Below the pieces are notes generated by a model, which ran no database searches, had not been told where the DNA came from, and saw only the letters and a list, made by a program, of their open reading frames with translations. Below are positions 4,938 through 62,646 of a DNA stretch of 64,000 nucleotides, piece by piece (position 1 is the first letter of the stretch; every line of letters begins with the position of its first letter). The translations under genes were made by a program, and so were the position numbers. Source of the DNA: Gracilaria vermiculophylla (Eukaryota > Rhodophyta > Florideophyceae > Gracilariales > Gracilariaceae); assembly GCA_019155205.2 (NCBI GenBank), contig JAHNZQ020000181.1, positions 2,847,456-2,911,455 of the forward strand, given 5' to 3'.

Positions 4938-5933
4938 TCAATAGTTTATTTTGCATCCTTTTTGCTGTATAACGCTAATGCAGCGTTTCTGCATCGAATT
5001 GATGTACTTTTCCACAGTTGAAACTGTTATAGATTTCCAGCAATTTTTAATACAGGTTTTAAGTTCAAAAACTGTCTTAAATTGCCTTCCATGCGCATAA
5101 ACCATCCTCGCCAGCAGTCCCCAAACATTTTCAATTGGGTTCAAATCTGGTGAGCGCGCCGGCCACTCTAAAACAGATACCTCAGACTCTTGTAGCCAAT
5201 TTTTGATTAAAGATGCAGTGTGTAAGGGCGCATTATCCTGTTGAAAAATGAAATTTTCTTCATGGAAACATAAACCAAAAGGTAGCAAATAGTTGTATAG
5301 AACTTCTTGATATTTTTCTGCATTCATGTTCGTTTCAATAAATGCAATTTCCGTTAGACCTTTTTTAGAAATGCCCGCCCAGACTATTACAGAGCCTCCA
5401 CCAGAGTGCCTGGTATAAAATTCATGACGTTCCTTACGAAGATCGTGCCAATAAAATTTGTAGCAATCTGGTCCGTCCAAGTTGAACTTTTTTTCATCTG
5501 TAAAAATAACATTTTCCCATTCTTTTTTCCAGTAGGCTTTTCCAGCACACCAGTCAATCCTCTTTTGCTTGTGATGGTCTTGGAGAAAGAAAGTTTTCTT
5601 CATTTTTTTATATTTAAATAAATTTGTGCTGTTTATCTGCCTCCATATAGTTGATTTAGAAACGTTGAGATTGAGATTAATTCCAATTTTTTTGCACGAT
5701 ACTTTTCCTTTACACAACTCTCTTTTAATATTTCTTTTGTCCGCTGGGCTGAGCTTCTTTGGGCGTCCCGGAGATCGTTTTAAGCCATATAGAGTCGGGT
5801 TTTTGAGAAAAGTAGCAATTGTGACCCTAGAACGCTTTAATTTTTTAGCGATAGCACTGTTAGAGTGCTTCTCGGCGTTCAGATTAACGATTAGAAGCTG
5901 TTCTTGCTTCGAAAGTGGCGGGCCTCGAGCCAT
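4938..5933 (-). CDS. Tc1-family transposase (DD34E)
   Basis: I chose the ATG at 5933, giving 331 residues, close to the usual 340 of Tc1 transposases. The longer open frame upstream (to 6077) would run through the terminal repeat and is unlikely to be translated. The N-terminus is a helix-turn-helix region (LSKQEQL, then HSNSAIAKKLKRSRVTI) with a GRPKK basic motif near residue 60, which in this family binds the inverted repeats. The catalytic triad is visible: Asp in VIFTDEKKFNLDGPD, Asp in FQQDNAPLHTA, and Glu in PDLNPIENVWG, with 34 residues between the last two. GGGSVIVWAGIS is the family's conserved strand. The frame is complete with no stops, so the protein may be functional or only recently silenced. 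Confidence 0.9.
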   Translation of the reverse strand: MARGPPLSKQEQLLIVNLNAEKHSNSAIAKKLKRSRVTIATFLKNPTLYGLKRSPGRPKKLSPADKRNIKRELCKGKVSCKKIGINLNLNVSKSTIWRQINSTNLFKYKKMKKTFFLQDHHKQKRIDWCAGKAYWKKEWENVIFTDEKKFNLDGPDCYKFYWHDLRKERHEFYTRHSGGGSVIVWAGISKKGLTEIAFIETNMNAEKYQEVLYNYLLPFGLCFHEENFIFQQDNAPLHTASLIKNWLQESEVSVLEWPARSPDLNPIENVWGLLARMVYAHGRQFKTVFELKTCIKNCWKSITVSTVEKYINSMQKRCISVIQQKGCKINY

Positions 5934-6039
5934 TTTTACTAGAAAGAAGAAGGTGTACATATCTTTTTGAAACGATTCTACATAGACTATGTGCAAAATC
6001 TGGCCTACAGTACAGTTTTGGCGCACTTTTGAGGGGCAA

Positions 6040-6059
6040 TATGTTTTTGAAACGCACTG
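6040..6059 (-). repeat. Tc1 copy 1, right terminal inverted repeat (outer direct repeat)
   Basis: Read on the minus strand it is CAGTGCGTTTCAAAAACATA, the same as the left end apart from three bases near the tip. It is followed by TA at 6060-6061. Confidence 0.85.
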
Positions 6060-6250
6060 TACGTGCAGTATACCCACGCTTGTGAATGGAAATGTTCCAC
6101 GACGCCACTCCTGTATATATAGTGTCTACATCTTCGGGAACGGACGCCAATGCGCGTCAAGGGGTAATCTTTCAAAAGAGACGCAGTCGAATAAGCTTTG
6201 GGGGGTGAAGAGTATAGAGATACCTTAGAGGAGTCAAGCCAAATTTTTGG

Positions 6251-50923: not shown

Positions 50924-52363
50924 CTAATTACGGCCCGCCGCAACACGCTCTCCCTCCTTCACTTTCTGCTCCGCCTCCGCTGGCGCTTCTACCCACACCC
51001 CGTCCTCCTTCAGCAGCTTGATCAGCTCCTCCACCCCATCCGTCTCCGGCACCGTCCGGATCTCCTTCCGTCCCCGATATAACGAGATGAAGCCCGCCTG
51101 TTTCCCCACGTACCCGTAGTCCGCGTCCGCCATTTCTCCCGGCCCGTTTACAATGCACCCCATCACCGCGATCGACAGCCCCGGCATGTGCTTCGTTGCT
51201 TCCCGCACCTCATGCAGCACCGTCTCCAGGTTGAACAACGTTCTTCCGCAGGACGGACACGCCACGTACTCCACCATCGTCCGGCGTAGCCCTAGCCCTT
51301 GCAAGATGCCGTAGCACACCGGAATCTCCTTCACAGGCGCCTCCGTCAGCGATACACGAATTGTGTCGCCAATCCCCTCCGCCAACAACGTCCCGATGCC
51401 AAGCGTGCTCTTGATCCTTCCGTACTCTCCATCTCCAGCCTCCGTCACGCCCAGGTGCAGCGGGTACTTCATCCCCTCGGCATCGAGGCGTTTGGCCAGC
51501 ATGCGGTACGCCGCCAGCATCACCAGCACCTTGCTGGCCTTCATCGAGATGACAATGTTGTGGAAGTTGAGGTCCTCACACACGCGAATGCATTCCAGCG
51601 CGCTCTCCACCATGCCGCGTGGCGTATCGCCATACGTAAACAGCATGCGCTCCGAGAGCGACCCGTGGTTTACGCCTATTCGCAACGCCTTGTCTTGCTC
51701 CCTAAGGCTGATGATAAGCGGCTCAAGCGTATCTCGCAACTTGTTCTTCGCCACCTCAAACTCCTCGCGAGTGTACTCGGTGCGATTGATATCCGGCTTT
51801 TCGAAAACATATAACCCGGGGTTGATGCGCACCTTGTCAACGTGTTTAGCTACCTCTAATGCAATCTTCAGTCCGTTGTGGTGTACGTCAGCCACCAGTG
51901 GCACGTCCTTGTACTCGGCGCGTAGCTTTTGCTTGATGAAGCCCACTGCATGCGCGTGCGCCATGCTGACGCACGTGACACGAACAATCTCGCACCCGGC
52001 CTCGTGCATCTCGCGAATGGAGTTGACCGCGTTGTCGATGTCGAGAGTGTCCTCGTTGATCATGCTCTGCACAACCACCGGGTTGCCGCCGCCGATGAGA
52101 ATGTCGCCCACGCGCACCACGCGAGTGGGGCGACGCTGGATAGCACCGCTTTCGATATCAAGCCCCGCAACGCCCGACTGGTCGGACATGAACGACTTGT
52201 CCTTGACGAGCTCTGGCGGGGGCTGCGGACGAGCCGGTCCGTCATGCATGCGCGGCACGACATGACTGCGCGCAGAACGCGGACGCGTGGCGGAAGTCGA
52301 CGTGCGCCAGACGCGGTTAGCCCATGGCGAGGGCGCGTTGGGAATGAAGGAAGGTGCTTGCAT
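50924..52363 (-). CDS. ispG: 4-hydroxy-3-methylbut-2-enyl diphosphate synthase, plastid IspG
   Basis: 479 residues. IspG reduces MEcPP to HMBPP, the next-to-last step of the plastid MEP isoprenoid pathway, with ferredoxin/flavodoxin electrons. The first 75 or so residues look like a transit peptide (Phe at 6, many Ser, Arg, Pro). The TIM barrel follows: [53 protein letters not shown]. The iron-sulfur domain has C369 and C372 ([14 protein letters not shown]), C403 and E410 ([10 protein letters not shown]), the four [4Fe-4S] ligands. The overall order is the two-domain cyanobacterial form; land-plant IspG has a large extra domain between the two, which is absent. Divergent from MutS2 across 464 bp. 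Confidence 0.95.
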
Positions 52364-52827: not shown

Positions 52828-55708
52828 ATGAAAACGCTCCCTTCGTTTACCGCTTGTGTCGCGCTGCAGCCGCGCGCGGCAGTGCCCGCACGGGGGACTG
52901 CTATTTCGCGCGCGTGGCGACCTGCTCGGCTGGCAAACCGGGCCAGTGTTCCACTATGCACGCACGTGGCGCCAACACCGGCCGCTGCCGATGTGCGCCG
53001 AGATAGCGCGCAGCTCTCATTTAGAGCCGCCGAGCGCACCCGCACGACTGATGAAGCTCGAGTCACGCGTGCGCCGGCTGACGAGACGCTGCGACTGCTC
53101 GACTGGCCGGCAGTGTCGGCCCAAGTGGCGCGACATGCCAGCACCGACCTGGCCGACAGGCACTTTCGGCGGGAGCTCGGAATGCCCATTCCTCAGTCTC
53201 AGCAGTACAGCGAGACTCTCTTGGGGCTCACGAGAGCGCTTCACTATCTGTACTTCACTTTGATGAAACCTATCGATTTCCGTGGCATTCGCGACATTGG
53301 CGACTTGTTCGTGCAGGCTGAGAAGGGCATCTTGTTGACCGCTTCTGAGCTTCGGGATATTGCCGACACCCTTTGTGCCGCCCGGAGGATACGTAGGTTT
53401 ATTGATGCCGTCCCGGACGATCGCGTCGCTGTGTTGAAGAAGCTTGTCGATGATGTGCGCACTTATCCGGAAGTCGAATCTAAAATTAGTGCCTTGATCG
53501 ACGAGTTTGGGCAGGTTGTAGATACGTATGATGCCCCTCTCAGACAGATTCGCGCCGAAATGCGAGCCACTAGCACGGATATTACTGCGCGCTTGAATCG
53601 ACTCATGAGCAGCAACGCTGGAGCTATTCAGGATCGCGTCATTACTATGCGTTACGACCGCTATGTCATTCCTGTGAAAACGCCAAGGAAAGCACAATTC
53701 AAACGTGCTGTCGTGCATGATGTTAGTGCCTCGGGCGGCACCACATACTTGGAACCTGCCTGCGTGCGCCAATTTAACGACAGACTTCGTATGTTGGCTG
53801 CCAAGGAACGCGCGCGTGTTAACAAAGTTTTGAGGGAGCTGTCGGAGCTCGTTGCGCCACTGCGCGAGGATGTGAACCATTTGTGTCACGTAATCTGTGA
53901 ACTGGATGTTGCGGCTGCCAAGGCGAGTGCTTCTCATGAGCTCGGAGCTGTTGACGTACATTTTGACAATCAGAAACCTCTGCGCTTGTTGGGTGTGCGG
54001 CATCCGTTGTTATCTTGGCGTGCCATGGCACAAACTATGTCTGTCAAACAGAATCCTAGCTCGCAACAGGGAGGAAGCGATGAAGAGCCACAATGGAAAC
54101 GGGATGTGGTACCAACCAATTACGAACTCTCTAACGACGTGCGATGCGTATGTGTGACAGGGCCGAACACTGGCGGAAAGACTCTGGCGCTCAAGACTCT
54201 TGGCGTGGCAGTGCTCATGGCGAAAGTGGGAATGTTTGTTCCGGGCGTTTTGAACAAATGTGCTGAAGGCAGTAGCCAAACATGTGCCCGAATTCCATTC
54301 TTCGACACTGTACTCGCGGATATTGGTGACGACCAGTCGCTCGTCCAATCCCTGTCCACATTTTCAGGTCATGTAGAGAGAATCAAACGTATTCTGGCGG
54401 CGAGCACGTCTCTATCGCTGGTGTTACTGGACGAAATCGGGTCTGGAACGGTACGTACATATGTTCATTGATCATGAAGCGTTACTTCGAATATGTATTT
54501 TGTTCTTGTGTCTGACTTTGTGTGTGACGGTGATTGCGCAACTCGTCAATATACAGGATCCGGCTGAAGGCGCAGCATTGGGTATGTCCATTCTTCGACA
54601 TCTGGCAGTTGGTAACCGAGCGGCATTAACTTTTGCAACCACGCATCATGGAGAATTGAAAACGCTGAAGTACTTGAAGGACAGCTCTGCCCGGTTCTTT
54701 GAAAACGCCAGTGTTGAATTTGATGATGTGAATATGGTACCGACCTACCGATTGATCTGGGGGATACCAGGACGGTCAAACGCTTTAGCGATTGCGGAGC
54801 GACTAGGCTTAGAATCTTCTGTCATCGAAGAGGCACGATTTCTTCTACACGGAGCGGATGACGAAAATGGTTCAAATACGAGAGTAGACATCGAGAGAAT
54901 GATATCTAGTCTTGAGCGGGATAAGAACGCTGCTGAAACTGCACGTGAAGACTCCGAACGAGCCTTGCGAGAAGCGAACGCAATGCGCTCAGAATTGGAA
55001 AGTCGGCTAACGCGGCTGCGTGAAAGTGAAGCCCAATTGAGGAAGGATCAGAGGAACGCAATGGAAGCAGAGGTCACGCAAGCGAAGAAACAAATAGCCA
55101 AAGTGATTCGCGAGATGCAAAAAGGCGGTGGTTCCGCGCAAGCTGCAGGACGTGCCACTGAAAAGTTGGGCAATCTGAATGTTCCCGGCAGTGACTCTCC
55201 TTTGCCGAGCGAGAATGCATTAGGATCCGTGGATGTGGACGACATAAGAGAAGGCGATAAGGTAACCGTCCCGAGGCTTAGCGTGAACGAATTGGAAGTG
55301 GTGCAGAAACTCAGCAAGAAGGAACTTATGGTGGCGATCGGGGTTATGAGAGCCAAAGTTAAGGTGAAGGAAGTAGTGTCGGTGAATAAGAGAAAAGCTG
55401 AACGATCAAACGCGCAATCTAGACCAAGACCGAAAATCAACACGGTTAGGAAGCAACTCAGGATTCGAACCGCCGCGAATACTGTTGATATTAGAGGGCA
55501 AACGGTGGATTCAGCAAAGCCTTTAGTCGACAGGGCGATCAGCAAGGCGCTGGCGATGGGAACTGTATGGGTTATACATGGATTCGGTACTGGTCGCCTA
55601 AGGGATGGTATCCGGGATTTCTTGTCAGAACATGAACTGGTCGAAAAAATTTCAAACGCAGAGCAAGAGGAGGGTGGAAGAGGAGTTACCATAGCCTTTC
55701 TTCACTGA
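52828..55708 (+). CDS. mutS2: MutS2-type DNA mismatch/recombination ATPase with Smr nuclease domain, one intron
   Basis: Exons 52828-54450 and 54557-55708 encode 924 residues. The first 75 or so look like a transit peptide (Phe at 7; Ala, Arg, Ser rich). MutS2 core: LDWPAVSAQVARHA near 90, lever/clamp helices, VTGPNTGGKTLALKTLG (Walker A, about 445-455), LLDEIGSGT (Walker B, about 533-541) that continues as DPAEGAALGMSIL after splicing, and FATTHHGELKTLKY (ATPase H-loop). Then a charged coiled coil (about 655-740) and a C-terminal Smr domain (about 845-915) with VDIRGQTVDSA and VIHGFGTGRLRDGI. In bacteria MutS2 suppresses recombination and rescues stalled ribosomes; it has no classical mismatch-binding domain. 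Cyanobacterial ancestry and a plastid role are inferred. Confidence 0.93.
54451..54556 (+). other. Spliceosomal intron in MutS2 (106 nt)
   Basis: Starts GTACGT and ends TATACAG, falls between codons (phase 0), and splits the Walker B region after S-G-T; removing it joins SGT to DPAEGAAL, the conserved MutS order. In-frame stops inside the intron prevent read-through. A TCTGAC at about 54510 may be the branch site. Confidence 0.93.
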
Positions 55709-56080: not shown

Positions 56081-56365
56081 TCATGTCTTTGCTGCCGAAA
56101 TATACATCACATTGTTTCCGCGAATAAAGGCATCTCCAAAGGTGTTTTTCAGTTCTCCGTTAACATACTCCTCGGTTTGTTCAAGAGCTATGTTCATGTA
56201 CCCATCCAGGCAAGCCAAAATTCCGCGGTACTCCACGGACGTATTCAACTTCACAACGACGGGGCGCCCAAGCACGGCCTTGAGAAAATCCGCAGGGGTG
56301 TTGCCATGACCGTGACTGGCTGACACGGGACGACTAGACGAGGCTGGCGCTGACGACGAAGCCAT
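56081..56365 (-). CDS. LSM6: LSm6, U6 snRNA-associated Sm-like protein
   Basis: 94 residues from the ATG at 56365; the longer upstream frame starts at a non-ATG codon. A short Ser/Ala-rich N-terminus is followed by an Sm fold: Sm1 (RPVVVKLNTSVEYRGILACL, then DGYMNIALEQTEE) and Sm2 (FGDAFIRGNNVMYIS). The DGYMN and IRGNN motifs bind RNA, and GRPVVVKLN and ACLDGYMNIALEQTEEY are LSm6 signatures. LSm6 sits in the LSm1-7 (mRNA decay) and LSm2-8 (U6 snRNP) rings. This is a clearly eukaryotic gene, which helps show that the bacterial-type neighbours are nuclear. Confidence 0.95.
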   Translation of the reverse strand: MASSSAPASSSRPVSASHGHGNTPADFLKAVLGRPVVVKLNTSVEYRGILACLDGYMNIALEQTEEYVNGELKNTFGDAFIRGNNVMYISAAKT

Positions 56366-56826: not shown

Positions 56827-59800
56827 ATGCAATGTATCGCATTTCTAGCACCGTTACCACTGGTCCTGCGCTCTATTTCTGCCCCGCACCAAGAATACGG
56901 CCTCGTTCGTCTGCCGCCCAGAGTAGTCGTTGCTAGTTTGCAAAAGAATGATGTTTCCTCAGGAATTGATGTATTTCCGGCGAAGCAGTACGTTCCTCTT
57001 CATGTTCATTCCGACTACTCTCTGCTAGATGGTGCGAGTCAGCTGTCATCGCTTGTATCAAGGGCCGCCGAACTTGATGTTCCAGCTTTGGCATTGACAG
57101 ACCATGGCGTACTGTACGGCGCCCTTCAACTAATTCGCGCTTGCGCAAACACCGACGTGAAGCCAATTATCGGCAACGAAATGTACATTATTAATGATAT
57201 TCCAGAAGGGCAGTCCAACGGAGAAGCTCCTAAACGATACCATCTAATTGTTTTGGCAAAGAATGAAATTGGATATAGAAATTTGGTCAAGCTCACCACA
57301 ATGGCACATCTAGAGGGTGTTATAGGAAAGGGTATCTTTGCAAGGCCGTGCATAAATAAGGCGCAACTGCATCAATACCGCGAGGGCCTTATTGTTAGCA
57401 GTGCTTGCCTTGGAGGGGAAATAGCGCAAGCAATTCTCAACGATGACATTGACTCGGCACGAACTGCGGCGAGCTGGTTTCGTGATGCGTTTGGAGACGA
57501 TTTTTATCTCGAAATTCAGGACCACGGAAGTGAAGAGGACAAGAAAGTCAATCCAATCATGTTGCAACTGTCTCGTGAACTATCAATCAAGGTTATTGCT
57601 ACTAACGATAGTCATTTCACAAGCTGTCTAGACGCCGAAGCTCATGATGCTCTAATTTGCATTCAAACAGGGAAGCAATTAACAGATGAGAATCGTTTGC
57701 GCTATTCTGGAACCGAGTATTTCAAGTCTGTTGATGAAATGCGCCAATGCTTCGTGGACCATCTGCCATTAAACGCAGTGGACGAAGCTCTGTATAATAC
57801 GCTTGAAGTGGCGAATAAGGTTGAGCCGTACAACCTATTCGGTGCGACTCGAATTCCGGATTTCCCAGTACCGAAGAAGTTTGATAATTCCCATGATGAT
57901 TACTTGCGTCATGTAGCCCAACTTGGACTGCAAGAGCGACTAACAGCACGAACAAAATCAGGTTTGATTCGAAAAGGCTCAGAGCGCACCTACATTGAAC
58001 GTCTGGACCTCGAGCTGGACATGATTCGTCGCATGGGTTTTTCCTCGTATTTTCTTGTTGTTTGGGACTACATTCACTATGCTAGGACCCGCAACATACC
58101 AGTTGGACCCGGAAGGGGATCTGCAGCCGGTTCATTGGTTGCTTTTGCGCTGCGAATTACAGACGTAGATCCGATTCCATTCAACCTGCTCTTTGAGAGA
58201 TTCCTCAACATTGAGCGAAAGAGCATGCCTGACATTGACACCGACTTTTCCGTCGATGGAAGAGAAAAAGTAATCGAGTATGTAACAGAGCGTTACGGTC
58301 AGAGTCGTGTAGCGCAAATCATCACCTTCAATCGATTGACGAGCAAGGCTGTGTTGAAAGATGTCGCCCGAGTGCATAATGTATCTTATAAAGAAGCAGA
58401 TCGACTAGCGAAGCTCATCCCTGTTAGTCGAGGAAAACCGGCGACTTTGAAAGAGCTGCTTTCCGGAAAACCTCCGAGTCGAGACTTCAAAAAAGCTGTG
58501 GAGAGTCGTCCGGACTTTCGAGAATGGCTGGATAAAGCGCAACGCATCGAAGGGACAAACAAAACTTTTGGGATTCACGCCGCTGGTGTTGTAATATCAG
58601 CGGATCCCCTGACTGACATAGTGCCCTTGACGAAGGCGAAGCACGGTGAAACCATTACTCAGTACGCCATGGAAGATGTCGAGTCTGTCGGTTTGTTGAA
58701 GATGGACTTTCTTGGACTCAAGAACTTGACCGTGATAGAGATGGCTTTAAAGTTTATCAATCAAGGAAGGAGGGAGCAAGGGATTGGTGAGGATATTGAT
58801 TTTTCTGTGGATGCTCTACCTCTTGACGACGCCAATACTTACAAATTACTCGCTGAAGGGGAACTTGACGGAATTTTTCAATTAGACGCTTCTGCAGGAA
58901 TGCGCAACATTGTTCGCGAGCTTCGACCAACCTCTTTGGAAGACATATCCTCCGTATTGGCTCTATATCGTCCTGGGCCCCTAGATGCGGGCTTGATTCC
59001 GAAGTTTATCCGTCGCAAGCATGGCATAGAACCAATTGAATACGATCACCCGCTTCTTCAACCAATATTGAAAGAAACATATGGGATCATGGTTTATCAA
59101 GAACAAATCATGCGTATTGCCCGAGATCTTGCAGGTTACAGCTTGGGTCAAGCAGATATTCTTCGCAGAGCTATGGGGAAAAAGAAATTGAAGGATATGG
59201 AGAAAGAACGCCCAAGGTTTGTTAAAGGCGCGGAAGAACGAGGGATTGCGAAGGACGTATCGGAGAAGTTATTTGACATGATGGTGAAGTTTGCAGAGTA
59301 TTGCTTTAACAAGTCACACTCTACCGCCTACGCGTATTTGACGTATCAAACAGCTTTTCTCAAAGCGAACTATCCGGTAGAGTACTGCGCGGCCCTCTTA
59401 ACATCCAATATGCAGCAATCGGAAAAGTTGGTTCGTTATTTGGCGGATGCAAGGGTGCTTGGTGTTCGAATTCTTCCTCCTTCCGTGAACAGCTCTGGGC
59501 TCGGCTTTACAGTTCACCGCCAGAACAATAAAAGTATGGTACGATTCGGGTTTGAAGCAGTAAAAACCGTTGGTTCGTCTGTGAGCCAAGCGCTTATTGA
59601 TGAACGGAATGCTCACGGCCCTTTTAGAAGCATAGGAGACCTAATCAATCGTGTTGATTTGCGAGTGCTAAACAAACGGGCGATGGCCTCTCTCATACAA
59701 GCGGGTGCCTTTGATGAACTTCATCCAAATCGAAAGGTTCTACTCGAATCGTTTGAAGATTTGTTGACTCTGCGGCGCAAGCTTCGGGATAAAAGGAAGC

Positions 59801-62646
59801 GGAGAGAGAACAAAAGCAAAGCTCCGGATGATATGGACGAACTGAACCAACAAGAACAATTAGCATGGGAAGAGGCTGAAATCGGGCTTGCTCGAGCTTG
59901 CGATGAAGATCCAGACTTTGCCGATCTAGAGAGACTGTCTGGGGAAAAGGCGTCCATAGGATTCTATGCCTCAGGTCATCCTCTTCAAGATATGCAAGAT
60001 GTTGCAAAGTTTCTGGGGTGCGCTCGTGTCGATCTCCTCGTTGGAGAAGGGATGGACTCTAGCTACGATTTAGGTGGACCTGGTACACTGGGTTCAGTTT
60101 CATCTGGATTTCCAAGTGACTCTGAAGTGATGATTTTGTCGTGCATAACTGAGTTAAAGAAATTAACTACTGCAAAGGGAAGGAAAATGGCTAGGTGGAT
60201 GATAGAAGATGCGACAAGTCGCATAAGTGGAGTTGTATTTCCGGGGCACTATGAAGTCGTTGAGCAAGTGGTAGATCATTCCAGCAATGAAGCCGCTTCG
60301 CTCCGTCTTGAAATGGAGATCGGACGAAGCCATCCCAGCGTTCAAGATATGAACAAGGAATCCGATCCACAATTTGTTGTACAAAACGACGCAAGGGTGC
60401 TCGTATGGGGAAAAATCGACAGAGAGTCTTCCGGAACTGTACAGGTTATTGTTGACGATGTGCAACGGGTTGAGGATGTCCGCGTTGTGGTTGCCACAGC
60501 GAGATACAATCCGAAGCGATCCAAAGCAGAGAGTTTGTTAATTCTTCGGGAACTGGCTAAAGACGTTCTCGGAGATAAATTTGATGGGAAAGAGAGCGAT
60601 AGTAAGCTTTCACAACGACGACGGTGGATGAAGCCAAAATCATTGAGTAAGAAGAATCGCGTTCCTCTTGTCCTTCGTTGCCTTGATGAGCAGGGCAATA
60701 CCGCGACGACCACAAACGCTGGGAACGAGTATCGTTTTCCGGCAAATAACCAAGAGCTTGTTGCCGAGCTTCAACGAAAGACAGGGATGGAATGCCTGGA
60801 GATCTCTGTGATGGATGACATAGCGGGCGTAAGCAGGTCGCTTATGTTAAACTTTGATGATGTTGATAATCAAAATGATGAAACATGCACTACTCATGAG
60901 ATGAAAATTGCATCGGGAGAAAATGCACCAGTTGGTATTGAAGTAACTGCCCAGGAGTTGATCTCTGATGAATGTCCCCAGAAAGAATTGGATGAACGGA
61001 CAGATCATCGGTTTCATAACCAAAACGAAATGGAAGGACTATACACAGACGTGAAATCTTCCCCCATCTCACTCCCGGGATCTTCAAATGGCGGCTCAGA
61101 TTCTCATCCGCCTTTGAACACGTCTCTTACTCAACCAAAGATCAATATGAACGGATACGAGGATGAGGACCCAGTTCATCCACATGCAGACGTCACAGAT
61201 ATGGGCTGGAGTGCAAGTAAGAGAGCGGAAGTGATTAACAGTATGAAATGGATGCCGAAACGCGACACTTTTGCGGAACGGATTTTCTGCGCCGGTCCGC
61301 GAATGAACGACTTCGCTCCTTCGGATGCGTTCCTGAGATACAGTGAAGAAGCTAAATCTTCCATACTCACTGCGGCTTGTATTGACAAACCATTTCGTAC
61401 ACACGACCAGATTAGGGCCCGATTGGAAGCCAACTTGCAAAGCGTTACTCTTGACTCGCCGGTGGAATATTTGTCAAGTACTCACCCTGAGAATGAACAT
61501 GATGGCCTTGACTGTGGCACTATGGAAACATCAGAAGGGTCGATTTCAGAGGTTTCTGAAAACGAATGCAACGAATTACTATCTGGTTTCAGCATTCGTA
61601 GTGAACGGGATGAGGTACATGGAGATTCTAGTGACGAAGGATCCTTTCCAATCGCGTGTTCGTCGGCAGCGCAGCAGTCTTTGCTCCTGGGCAAGGAATA
61701 TCTCGATTTGAAAACGGGCTTATTAGTTGATTATGACCAGTATGGACTTGAGGGCGTTCTTGATGCAGTTTGCTTGTTTGCAAGTGAAATAGCTCTACAT
61801 TATTCTGGAAATGAATGCGCTCTGGCTGGAATGACTAGTTTATCCGTCTCAAAACTTAAAGAGACGGACGTTGTGTTGAAGGTGAGCGGGCAATTGTCAT
61901 ATGTAGAAGATCGCTGTATATATGTGCTCATCGATATCCGTGAAAACGAGCCAAGTGGCGATCGAAAGCGAGTGAGATCTTTCGGTCCCCTTGTTGTCAT
62001 GCTTTTAGCAGATACCAACCAGGAATCTTTGAATAATTCACCAAAGAAACGGCAAATGGTTGTTTCATCATCTTTGAAATGCTTGGAGAAAGCAGCTCGA
62101 AGAAACGTTCATTCGACCAAGCAAAAGAGGAACTCAAAGTCAGAGGCCTCTGAGCGACATCCCGATCGCTCTTCAATCCGGCAATCATTGGCGATATCCG
62201 TTGAACAAATCCATACAGCTCGTACGGAAGGGTACAGATTTCACGCTGATGGGGGGCAGTTTCTGAGTTCAATGCACCGAATGGCTCTTCTATGTGTTGC
62301 CAATACGTCTGGAATTGCGAGAGAGAAGCTTTACGTAACATCATCCGAGTCCATCACTATCTCCGATCCAGCTGTGCTGCAAGGGACCATCCAAAATGAA
62401 TCAATAAGTGCCATGATTCAGGATGTATCTTCAAAAACCGCAAGTGTTCAAGTGAAGAGCACACTGTCTACCGTGCATGGAACTACAGCTCAGGTCCTTG
62501 CGACGTTTTTCGTTGCATGCAAAGGGGGTATGAAGTTACCGAAGATTTTTTTAACAGAGGGTCCGCCCCCTCTATTTGAGAGTCGAGAAGTCGAGGAATA
62601 CTTTCTAGACCACTGCAGACGGGTCTCAAGTAATATGGAGGTGTGA
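56827..62646 (+). CDS. dnaE: Cyanobacterial-type DNA polymerase III alpha (DnaE) with C-terminal double-hotdog-like extension
   Basis: One intronless frame of 1939 residues. The first 50 or so look like a transit peptide (Phe at 6). PHP domain: H59, H61, D63 (VPLHVHSDYSLLDGA), D92/H93 (TDHG), NDSH (260-263). Family C polymerase: GPGRGSAAGS (427-436), PDIDTDF (468-474) with catalytic D469 and D471, GLLKMDFLGLKNLT with D627, ALYRPGPLDAGLIP, and YGIMVYQEQIMRIA. At KFAEYCFNKSHSTAY (821-835) it crosses the cyanobacterial split-intein site without any intein. A helix-hairpin-helix near 905-935, QEQLAW (1009-1014, a possible clamp-binding motif), LSGEKASIGFYASGHP and an OB fold (1100-1215) complete a cyanobacterial DnaE to about 1330. 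Residues 1455-1935 resemble a tandem hotdog fold. Plastid replication is inferred. Confidence 0.93.
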   Translation: MQCIAFLAPLPLVLRSISAPHQEYGLVRLPPRVVVASLQKNDVSSGIDVFPAKQYVPLHVHSDYSLLDGASQLSSLVSRAAELDVPALALTDHGVLYGALQLIRACANTDVKPIIGNEMYIINDIPEGQSNGEAPKRYHLIVLAKNEIGYRNLVKLTTMAHLEGVIGKGIFARPCINKAQLHQYREGLIVSSACLGGEIAQAILNDDIDSARTAASWFRDAFGDDFYLEIQDHGSEEDKKVNPIMLQLSRELSIKVIATNDSHFTSCLDAEAHDALICIQTGKQLTDENRLRYSGTEYFKSVDEMRQCFVDHLPLNAVDEALYNTLEVANKVEPYNLFGATRIPDFPVPKKFDNSHDDYLRHVAQLGLQERLTARTKSGLIRKGSERTYIERLDLELDMIRRMGFSSYFLVVWDYIHYARTRNIPVGPGRGSAAGSLVAFALRITDVDPIPFNLLFERFLNIERKSMPDIDTDFSVDGREKVIEYVTERYGQSRVAQIITFNRLTSKAVLKDVARVHNVSYKEADRLAKLIPVSRGKPATLKELLSGKPPSRDFKKAVESRPDFREWLDKAQRIEGTNKTFGIHAAGVVISADPLTDIVPLTKAKHGETITQYAMEDVESVGLLKMDFLGLKNLTVIEMALKFINQGRREQGIGEDIDFSVDALPLDDANTYKLLAEGELDGIFQLDASAGMRNIVRELRPTSLEDISSVLALYRPGPLDAGLIPKFIRRKHGIEPIEYDHPLLQPILKETYGIMVYQEQIMRIARDLAGYSLGQADILRRAMGKKKLKDMEKERPRFVKGAEERGIAKDVSEKLFDMMVKFAEYCFNKSHSTAYAYLTYQTAFLKANYPVEYCAALLTSNMQQSEKLVRYLADARVLGVRILPPSVNSSGLGFTVHRQNNKSMVRFGFEAVKTVGSSVSQALIDERNAHGPFRSIGDLINRVDLRVLNKRAMASLIQAGAFDELHPNRKVLLESFEDLLTLRRKLRDKRKRRENKSKAPDDMDELNQQEQLAWEEAEIGLARACDEDPDFADLERLSGEKASIGFYASGHPLQDMQDVAKFLGCARVDLLVGEGMDSSYDLGGPGTLGSVSSGFPSDSEVMILSCITELKKLTTAKGRKMARWMIEDATSRISGVVFPGHYEVVEQVVDHSSNEAASLRLEMEIGRSHPSVQDMNKESDPQFVVQNDARVLVWGKIDRESSGTVQVIVDDVQRVEDVRVVVATARYNPKRSKAESLLILRELAKDVLGDKFDGKESDSKLSQRRRWMKPKSLSKKNRVPLVLRCLDEQGNTATTTNAGNEYRFPANNQELVAELQRKTGMECLEISVMDDIAGVSRSLMLNFDDVDNQNDETCTTHEMKIASGENAPVGIEVTAQELISDECPQKELDERTDHRFHNQNEMEGLYTDVKSSPISLPGSSNGGSDSHPPLNTSLTQPKINMNGYEDEDPVHPHADVTDMGWSASKRAEVINSMKWMPKRDTFAERIFCAGPRMNDFAPSDAFLRYSEEAKSSILTAACIDKPFRTHDQIRARLEANLQSVTLDSPVEYLSSTHPENEHDGLDCGTMETSEGSISEVSENECNELLSGFSIRSERDEVHGDSSDEGSFPIACSSAAQQSLLLGKEYLDLKTGLLVDYDQYGLEGVLDAVCLFASEIALHYSGNECALAGMTSLSVSKLKETDVVLKVSGQLSYVEDRCIYVLIDIRENEPSGDRKRVRSFGPLVVMLLADTNQESLNNSPKKRQMVVSSSLKCLEKAARRNVHSTKQKRNSKSEASERHPDRSSIRQSLAISVEQIHTARTEGYRFHADGGQFLSSMHRMALLCVANTSGIAREKLYVTSSESITISDPAVLQGTIQNESISAMIQDVSSKTASVQVKSTLSTVHGTTAQVLATFFVACKGGMKLPKIFLTEGPPPLFESREVEEYFLDHCRRVSSNMEV

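Follow-up and report, generated by a model that had tools for sequence, protein, structure and literature searches.

Motifs of the QxxLF type dock DnaE, the C-family DNA polymerase III alpha, on the beta clamp. Among hotdog proteins, the acyl-coenzyme A (acyl-CoA) thioesterases ACOT7 and ACOT12 form trimers in which each subunit is a double hotdog, and FapR carries one hotdog. On DNA replication in red-algal organelles, the accessible parts of two papers (PMC3914683, PMC4166229) speak of the family A enzymes POP and Pol I, refer to DnaE or Pol III for bacteria alone, and do not treat Gracilaria. Here we describe a gene of the red alga Gracilaria vermiculophylla that joins the two kinds of protein: within a 64,000-nucleotide stretch of genomic DNA (the window), a DnaE reading frame runs on into a double-hotdog C-terminal tail. 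A sequence-only reading of the window had proposed this fusion, which we call DnaE-hotdog, and had considered it undescribed. Consistent with that, a literature search by title and abstract opening returned, among the matches listed, nothing on the fusion or on red-algal DnaE, subscription journals being largely outside its coverage. Our best overall explanation, to which we give a probability of roughly one half, is that the gene encodes a plastid-imported DnaE that has lost its clamp motif and carries a pseudo-thioesterase tail as a binding or assembly module.

One reading frame for polymerase and tail

The frame at 56827-62646 of the plus strand is open for 1939 codons and encodes DnaE plus the C-terminal tail. 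The parts ahead of the hotdog domains are:

56827..56985, plus strand: N-terminal extension, residues 1-53, a possible plastid transit peptide with a Phe near its start (MQCIAFLAPLPL)
56986..60741, plus strand: DnaE (C-family DNA polymerase III alpha), residues 54-1305, with PHP, NTPase/palm, fingers, HHH and OB regions
60742..61206, plus strand: acidic linker, residues 1306-1460, poorly conserved
61207..61356, plus strand: conserved lead-in motif, residues 1461-1510 (KRDTFAERIFCAGPRMNDFAPSDAF)

Within its final 611 codons the gene frame contains a single stop, the terminal one, compared with 32 and 47 in the other two frames. A run of 610 open codons would arise by chance with a probability of about 7e-15 at the base composition of the window, and the GC content of third codon positions stays level throughout the gene (0.42-0.44). 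These values bear out the uninterrupted frame of about 600 codons beyond the polymerase. The polymerase itself was also delimited much as proposed, with an end near residue 1330: the DnaE models match to approximately residue 1325, and when nine cyanobacterial DnaE proteins are aligned with it, the bacterial sequence stops opposite residue ~1305. Pfam PF02811, PF07733, PF17657 and PF14579 and NCBIfam TIGR00594 and NF004226 score above cut-off in the DnaE part, with the PHP, palm/NTPase, fingers and HHH domains present in order. NF005617 gives the top score, 1500 bits, yet falls below its cut-off of 1653, and the OB region was placed from the NCBIfam span and a weak, below-cut-off match to Pfam PF01336.

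When residues 1330-1939 were used as the query, three proteins of 1914-1950 amino acids matched over the full query length (7990 candidates with the most shared words scored), with identities of 51% in Agarophyton chilense, 41% in Gracilaria domingensis and 41% in a EukProt transcript assembly. The G. domingensis record is annotated merely as "DNA-directed DNA polymerase", and the A. chilense (Gracilariaceae) protein is 75% identical over its alignment to DnaE-hotdog. Residues 1010-1560 of the transcript-assembly protein, P0003, retrieved 26 proteins (P0001-P0026; 7987 candidates scored), which together with the window protein form the set of 27 used below. The fusion recurs in other red-algal proteins: polymerase and tail are found in 26 of the 27, with 562-835 residues beyond the alignment column of residue 1330. 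P0026 has 0 residues past that column and ends before the polymerase-tail junction; because it stops short of the cyanobacterial DnaE end point, the sequence is probably truncated, as opposed to coming from a polymerase that lacks the tail.

P0003 (TRINITY, 1915 amino acids) is a transcript of a relative, not RNA of the window species, and it spans both polymerase and tail, which disfavours an assembly join or two separate genes. We considered whether a lost stop or a frame error had fused two genes, or whether the hotdog-like pattern had arisen by chance. Nothing was found in favour of such an artefact, and we discount it in view of the 26 tail-bearing proteins, one of them a transcript assembly; the structure model and sequence profile described below are concordant; we regard its probability as negligible. 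We conclude that this is one gene, as first proposed, and that the DnaE frame running on into a hotdog tail is confirmed.

The motifs PDIDTDF and MDFLGL, which we take to be the sites of the catalytic aspartates, are kept in 27/27 proteins, suggesting that red-algal DnaE is probably active, and the whole polymerase core is strongly conserved in the red-algal alignment. In a scan of prokaryote genomes the best 80 of 585 relatives were all cyanobacteria by title, at 49-54% identity in the best segment. A tree of the cores of the 27 red-algal proteins and 14 of these 80 cyanobacterial rows, with cyanobacteria the sole bacteria included, placed each group on one side of a branch (support 100/100). 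The red-algal side comprises a branch of 5 rows (100/95) and a branch of 22 (93/99). Because P0004-P0026 form one clade with the named members, we infer that the fusion is spread over red algae beyond the Gracilariaceae. Four homologues of the deep 5-row branch (P0022-P0025) lack a C-terminal PLF stretch by eye, while keeping the tail residues that are invariant in 26/26; they are perhaps from a different class of red algae.

More than 30 residues precede the core in 16 of the 26 P records, and all 16 have a Phe within the first 28 residues; the other 10 begin at or within the core and are uninformative on this point. A Phe near the start is a feature of transit peptides in red algae. Within 28 residues a Phe is frequent by chance, and the support for a transit peptide is correspondingly weak. 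We consider it probable that DnaE-hotdog is located in the plastid.

The tail as a double hotdog

Beyond the lead-in motif the tail contains the following features:

61720..62007, plus strand: hotdog domain 1, residues 1632-1727 (AlphaFold2 model m4b4445b0b493, fold matches and ACOT7 profile match)
61963..61977, plus strand: conserved basic hairpin RKRVR, residues 1713-1717, within hotdog 1
62041..62097, plus strand: helix lying between hotdogs 1 and 2, residues 1739-1757 (DSSP on the model)
62179..62520, plus strand: hotdog domain 2, residues 1785-1898 (model and fold matches), its long helix headed by the DGG at 62248-62256
62581..62640, plus strand: C-terminal helix, residues 1919-1938 (DSSP on the model)

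The AlphaFold2 model has two hotdog domains in one chain, which Foldseek and VIA-align matched to ACOT12 and ACOT7; these are the closest solved structures, at 8-14% identity to the tail. By profile, hotdog 1 matched ACOT7 (4zv3) and hotdog 2 matched ACOT12 (4mob) with a whole-sequence E of 0.0089, the single stretch alone being non-significant. Alignment A3 comprised 19 of the 26 tails, with P0012, P0013, P0014, P0016, P0020, P0022 and P0024 omitted and the start of P0023 trimmed. Single-sequence searches of Pfam, NCBIfam and the PDB with the tail gave nothing useful, only profile and fold being informative, and Pfam across the 19 members of A3 returned no family common to two members. With E values up to 1 allowed, 7602 candidates of ~175-556 amino acids included no tail-length relative, a range that the fused proteins exceed. 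We are nearly certain that a double hotdog is fused to this DnaE. Structure prediction thus agreed with the two hotdog blocks of the sequence-only reading, which lie where it had put them and include conserved residues. The double hotdog stood; the ACOT9-like label was not supported, the closest structural matches being to ACOT12 and ACOT7, with ACOT9 outside the comparison.

Nine positions carry the same residue in 26/26 tails: D1646, E1706, R1713, R1715, R1717, D1808, G1810, A1820 and F1894. In the hairpin, K1714 is Lys in 24 of the 26 and Arg in the other two, so that the pattern R, K/R, R, x, R is present in all. Within the DGG of hotdog 2, D1808 and G1810 are accompanied by G1809 in 24/26.

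The ACOT12 C-terminal hotdog (GGQIMAWMETVA) was aligned by HMMER to GGqiLssmsraA of the tail. Residue 1817 lies opposite the helix Glu of ACOT12 (in GGQIMAWME), which we take to be catalytic, and is Ser in 10, Thr in 6, Cys in 3, Ala in 3, His in 2, Phe in 1 and Asn in 1 of the tails, with no acid in 26/26. Position 1649 in hotdog 1 (C12 A8 T2 V2 G1 S1) was set against what is presumably its ACOT7 counterpart, an Asp just beyond the aligned stretch. Because the usual active-site acid is missing where it can be compared, binding appears a better guess than cleaving, in line with the earlier remark that the usual active-site residues are not evident. The membrane link that the sequence-only reading gave as an example of such binding is conjectural. 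These residues are most simply read as those of a module that is non-catalytic and bears a basic patch, and the tail is likely to lack ordinary thioesterase activity.

The same residues bear on whether the protein could be a bifunctional enzyme whose tail still cleaves a thioester by non-canonical residues. The acidic residues D1646, D1808 and E1706 are all invariant, and hotdog enzymes with other catalytic positions are known from the accessible part of PMC516016; set against this are the S/T/C/A/H/F/N at the ACOT12 acid position and a separate 4HBT gene elsewhere in the genome (contig C8). We consider a bifunctional enzyme very unlikely.

A second alternative draws on the fold and the hairpin. 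The tail could be a sensor of acyl-CoA or acyl-acyl carrier protein (acyl-ACP), in which a FapR-like, catalysis-poor hotdog would bind a plastid lipid precursor and switch or place the polymerase, tying DNA copying to membrane lipid supply. The fold of the tail is that of acyl-CoA thioesterases, the conserved basic hairpin could meet CoA phosphates, and the accessible part of PMC516016 provides a precedent in FapR, where a malonyl-CoA-controlled hotdog apparently without catalysis sits on a DNA-binding protein. However, the basic residues are equally suited to binding DNA or protein, and any ligand pocket or CoA site is putative. We consider the sensor explanation unlikely.

Between polymerase and hotdogs, the linker has a mean column identity of 0.20-0.30 across residues 1326-1450, and residues 1306-1621 contain 19% D+E and 8% K+R. 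The pattern RDxFxxxxF...F..(H/S)DAF at residues 1479-1502 was seen by eye in ~16 of the 26 tails. It had been read as an RDT lead-in resembling the start of ACOT9. Its assignment as a first hotdog strand was not supported: a second model (predicted local distance difference test, 67.9), from alignment A4, predicted a low-confidence helix there. A4 comprised 10 of the 26 tails (P0007 and P0009 omitted), and as these rows were selected with knowledge of the tails that bear the motif, lead-in conservation within A4 is biased. The lead-in may be a short docking motif and does not count as evidence for ACOT9.

The clamp motif and replication partners

A further difference lies inside the polymerase, at a basic block:

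59773..59805, plus strand: RRKLRDKRKRR, residues 983-993, adjoining the site of the cyanobacterial clamp-binding motif (GQGNLFDL and similar)

Between the HHH region and GFYxSDHPL, the nine aligned cyanobacterial proteins read GQGNLFDL or similar; 11 aligned red-algal proteins have, in the same place, a charged stretch starting RRKLRDKRKRR or similar. The pattern Q..[LMI][FL] was present at most 125 residues before the anchor in 80/80 cyanobacterial proteins and in 0/26 red-algal proteins (P0017, without the anchor, was left out), and the narrower Q..[LM]F in 70/78 cyanobacterial open reading frames. The basic block pattern was found in 24/26, with near variants in P0010 and P0021. By these counts the internal QxxLF-type clamp motif ahead of the OB region has been lost, though a wholly different clamp motif may be present. 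Overlooked in the sequence-only reading, this loss may be more weighty for function than the name of the fold.

In the genome assembly (44.8 Mb, 27 contigs), exon-by-exon matching found no match to the DnaN models PF00712 or TIGR00663, although the assembly may be incomplete; both models match 10 of 14 controls, Synechococcus included. The same method gave five DnaB_C matches, the best two of which lie on low-GC contigs, C19 (168300-172076; 202 kb, GC 0.29 in the 3.8 kb surrounding the gene) and C2 (135091-138867; 498 kb, GC 0.28), which look plastid-like by their size and GC. It also found DnaG on contig C18 as two pieces of one frame with a score below the curated cut-off. TIGR02397 gave only below-cut-off matches to DnaX, which are probably RFC, and PF12169 gave none in the genome but fails to match the Synechococcus control as well. 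The genome also encodes a family A polymerase (PF00476), POP and Pol I not being distinguished.

This last gene raises the possibility that DnaE-hotdog fills gaps during DNA repair in the plastid, with the tail a mere anchor to a partner and POP as the replicase. Both the family A gene and the loss of the clamp motif fit such a role, as does the naming of POP as the organellar polymerase of red algae in the accessible parts of PMC3914683 and PMC4166229. Against it, the entire core is strongly conserved, and DnaB together with the below-cut-off DnaG leaves room for a replicative fork. We regard a repair polymerase as possible but somewhat unlikely.

In the explanation we prefer, a plastid-imported DnaE with a pseudo-thioesterase tail, the protein would be a nuclear, cyanobacterium-derived red-algal DnaE, most likely imported into the plastid, that dropped the ancestral sliding-clamp docking motif and gained a C-terminal double hotdog, attached through a flexible acidic linker. 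The two hotdogs would most likely form a pseudo-thioesterase in which acyl-CoA hydrolysis gave way to a binding or assembly role. It could hold polymerase copies or DNA together via the conserved basic hairpin, or dock on a partner bound to acyl-CoA or acyl-ACP, and would partly replace clamp-based tethering. The analysis shows that polymerase and tail are fused, that this fusion recurs, that the clamp motif is gone and that DnaN goes undetected, and it predicts the fold with profile support; the plastid location, the lack of catalysis and the tethering or docking role are inferred. Tethering or oligomerising as the main role of the tail is a tentative assignment, to which we give less than an even chance. 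It is quite unlikely that red-algal plastids keep a working DnaB/DnaG/DnaE fork without a sliding clamp, in which an oligomeric tail made from a retired thioesterase would be a new processivity or polymerase-coupling device.

Several points weigh against the preferred explanation. An exon-by-exon search of an assembly that may be incomplete could overlook a DnaN gene that has many introns or has diverged strongly. The DnaX result fits a changed holoenzyme and does not reveal a replacement. As a family A polymerase is also encoded, DnaE may be a repair enzyme needing no clamp. Finally, hotdog enzymes vary in their catalytic residues, according to the accessible part of PMC516016, and loss at one position is thus no proof of inactivity.

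Retention and remodelling of a family C polymerase in red algae would change the picture of plastid DNA copying or repair there. The loss of the clamp motif, together with a lipid-enzyme fold on a polymerase, raises the question of what replaces the sliding clamp, and the tail would be a new example of a hotdog enzyme that has become a structural or sensing component of DNA-handling machinery.

Genomic surroundings and comparison with described proteins

The neighbours of DnaE-hotdog in the window are:

50924-52363, minus strand: GcpE
52828-54471 and 54461-55708: MutS2, in two overlapping frames
56093-56365, minus strand: small LSM-domain gene
62795 to the window end, opposite strand to DnaE: NAD-dependent DNA ligase, a 902-residue frame downstream of DnaE-hotdog

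MutS2 is probably split by one short intron at 54450-54580, judged by eye. Three bacterial-type DNA genes, MutS2, DnaE-hotdog and the ligase, lie within ~12.7 kb with just the LSM-domain gene seen between them, and the trio adjoins GcpE, which we take to be a gene of the plastid isoprenoid pathway. Farther upstream, 6078-48580 is a region of ~42 kb without any frame of at least 260 codons; it holds diverged copies (75-83% alike) of stretches ~20.8 kb apart and adjoins a Tc3-type transposase at 4938-6077.

A second, broken full-length copy of DnaE-hotdog lies near the end of contig C18, at ~2346.4-2352.2 kb. Its best frames are interrupted by ten in-frame stops and there is one frame change; the larger part of this copy matches P0002 and P0003 at 70-71%, versus 59% for the window gene. 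The DnaB loci on C19 and C2 share ~77% DNA identity across 1.66 kb. Plastid-type DNA from two different algae may be present in the assembly, and this could also have a bearing on the second DnaE copy.

We file the protein as a C-family DnaE polymerase with a double-hotdog tail that lacks one feature of ACOT enzymes. It shares with cyanobacterial DnaE the catalytic domains and the end point of the DnaE part, whereas it has an N-terminal extension, an inserted basic block, no QxxLF-type clamp motif, and an added double-hotdog tail of 318 residues behind a ~316-residue linker. The organellar DNA polymerase named for red algae in the accessible part of PMC4166229 would share an organellar setting with DnaE-hotdog. 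It belongs to family A and is unrelated to DnaE. In contrast to ACOT12 and ACOT7, the tail is joined to a polymerase, has the helix acid of ACOT12 replaced and is 8-14% identical to them. The likeness to ACOT9 had been proposed from an RD(S/T)(F/Y) lead-in and a helix pattern, and the lead-in is not predicted as a strand here. Chain Fi of 7pua, a trypanosome mitoribosome small-subunit assembly intermediate, is without a polymerase, and many plain thioesterases score equally in the fold listing. FapR resembles DnaE-hotdog in that a hotdog seemingly without catalysis is attached to a protein acting on DNA (PMC516016, accessible part), but it is a bacterial helix-turn-helix repressor and not a polymerase.

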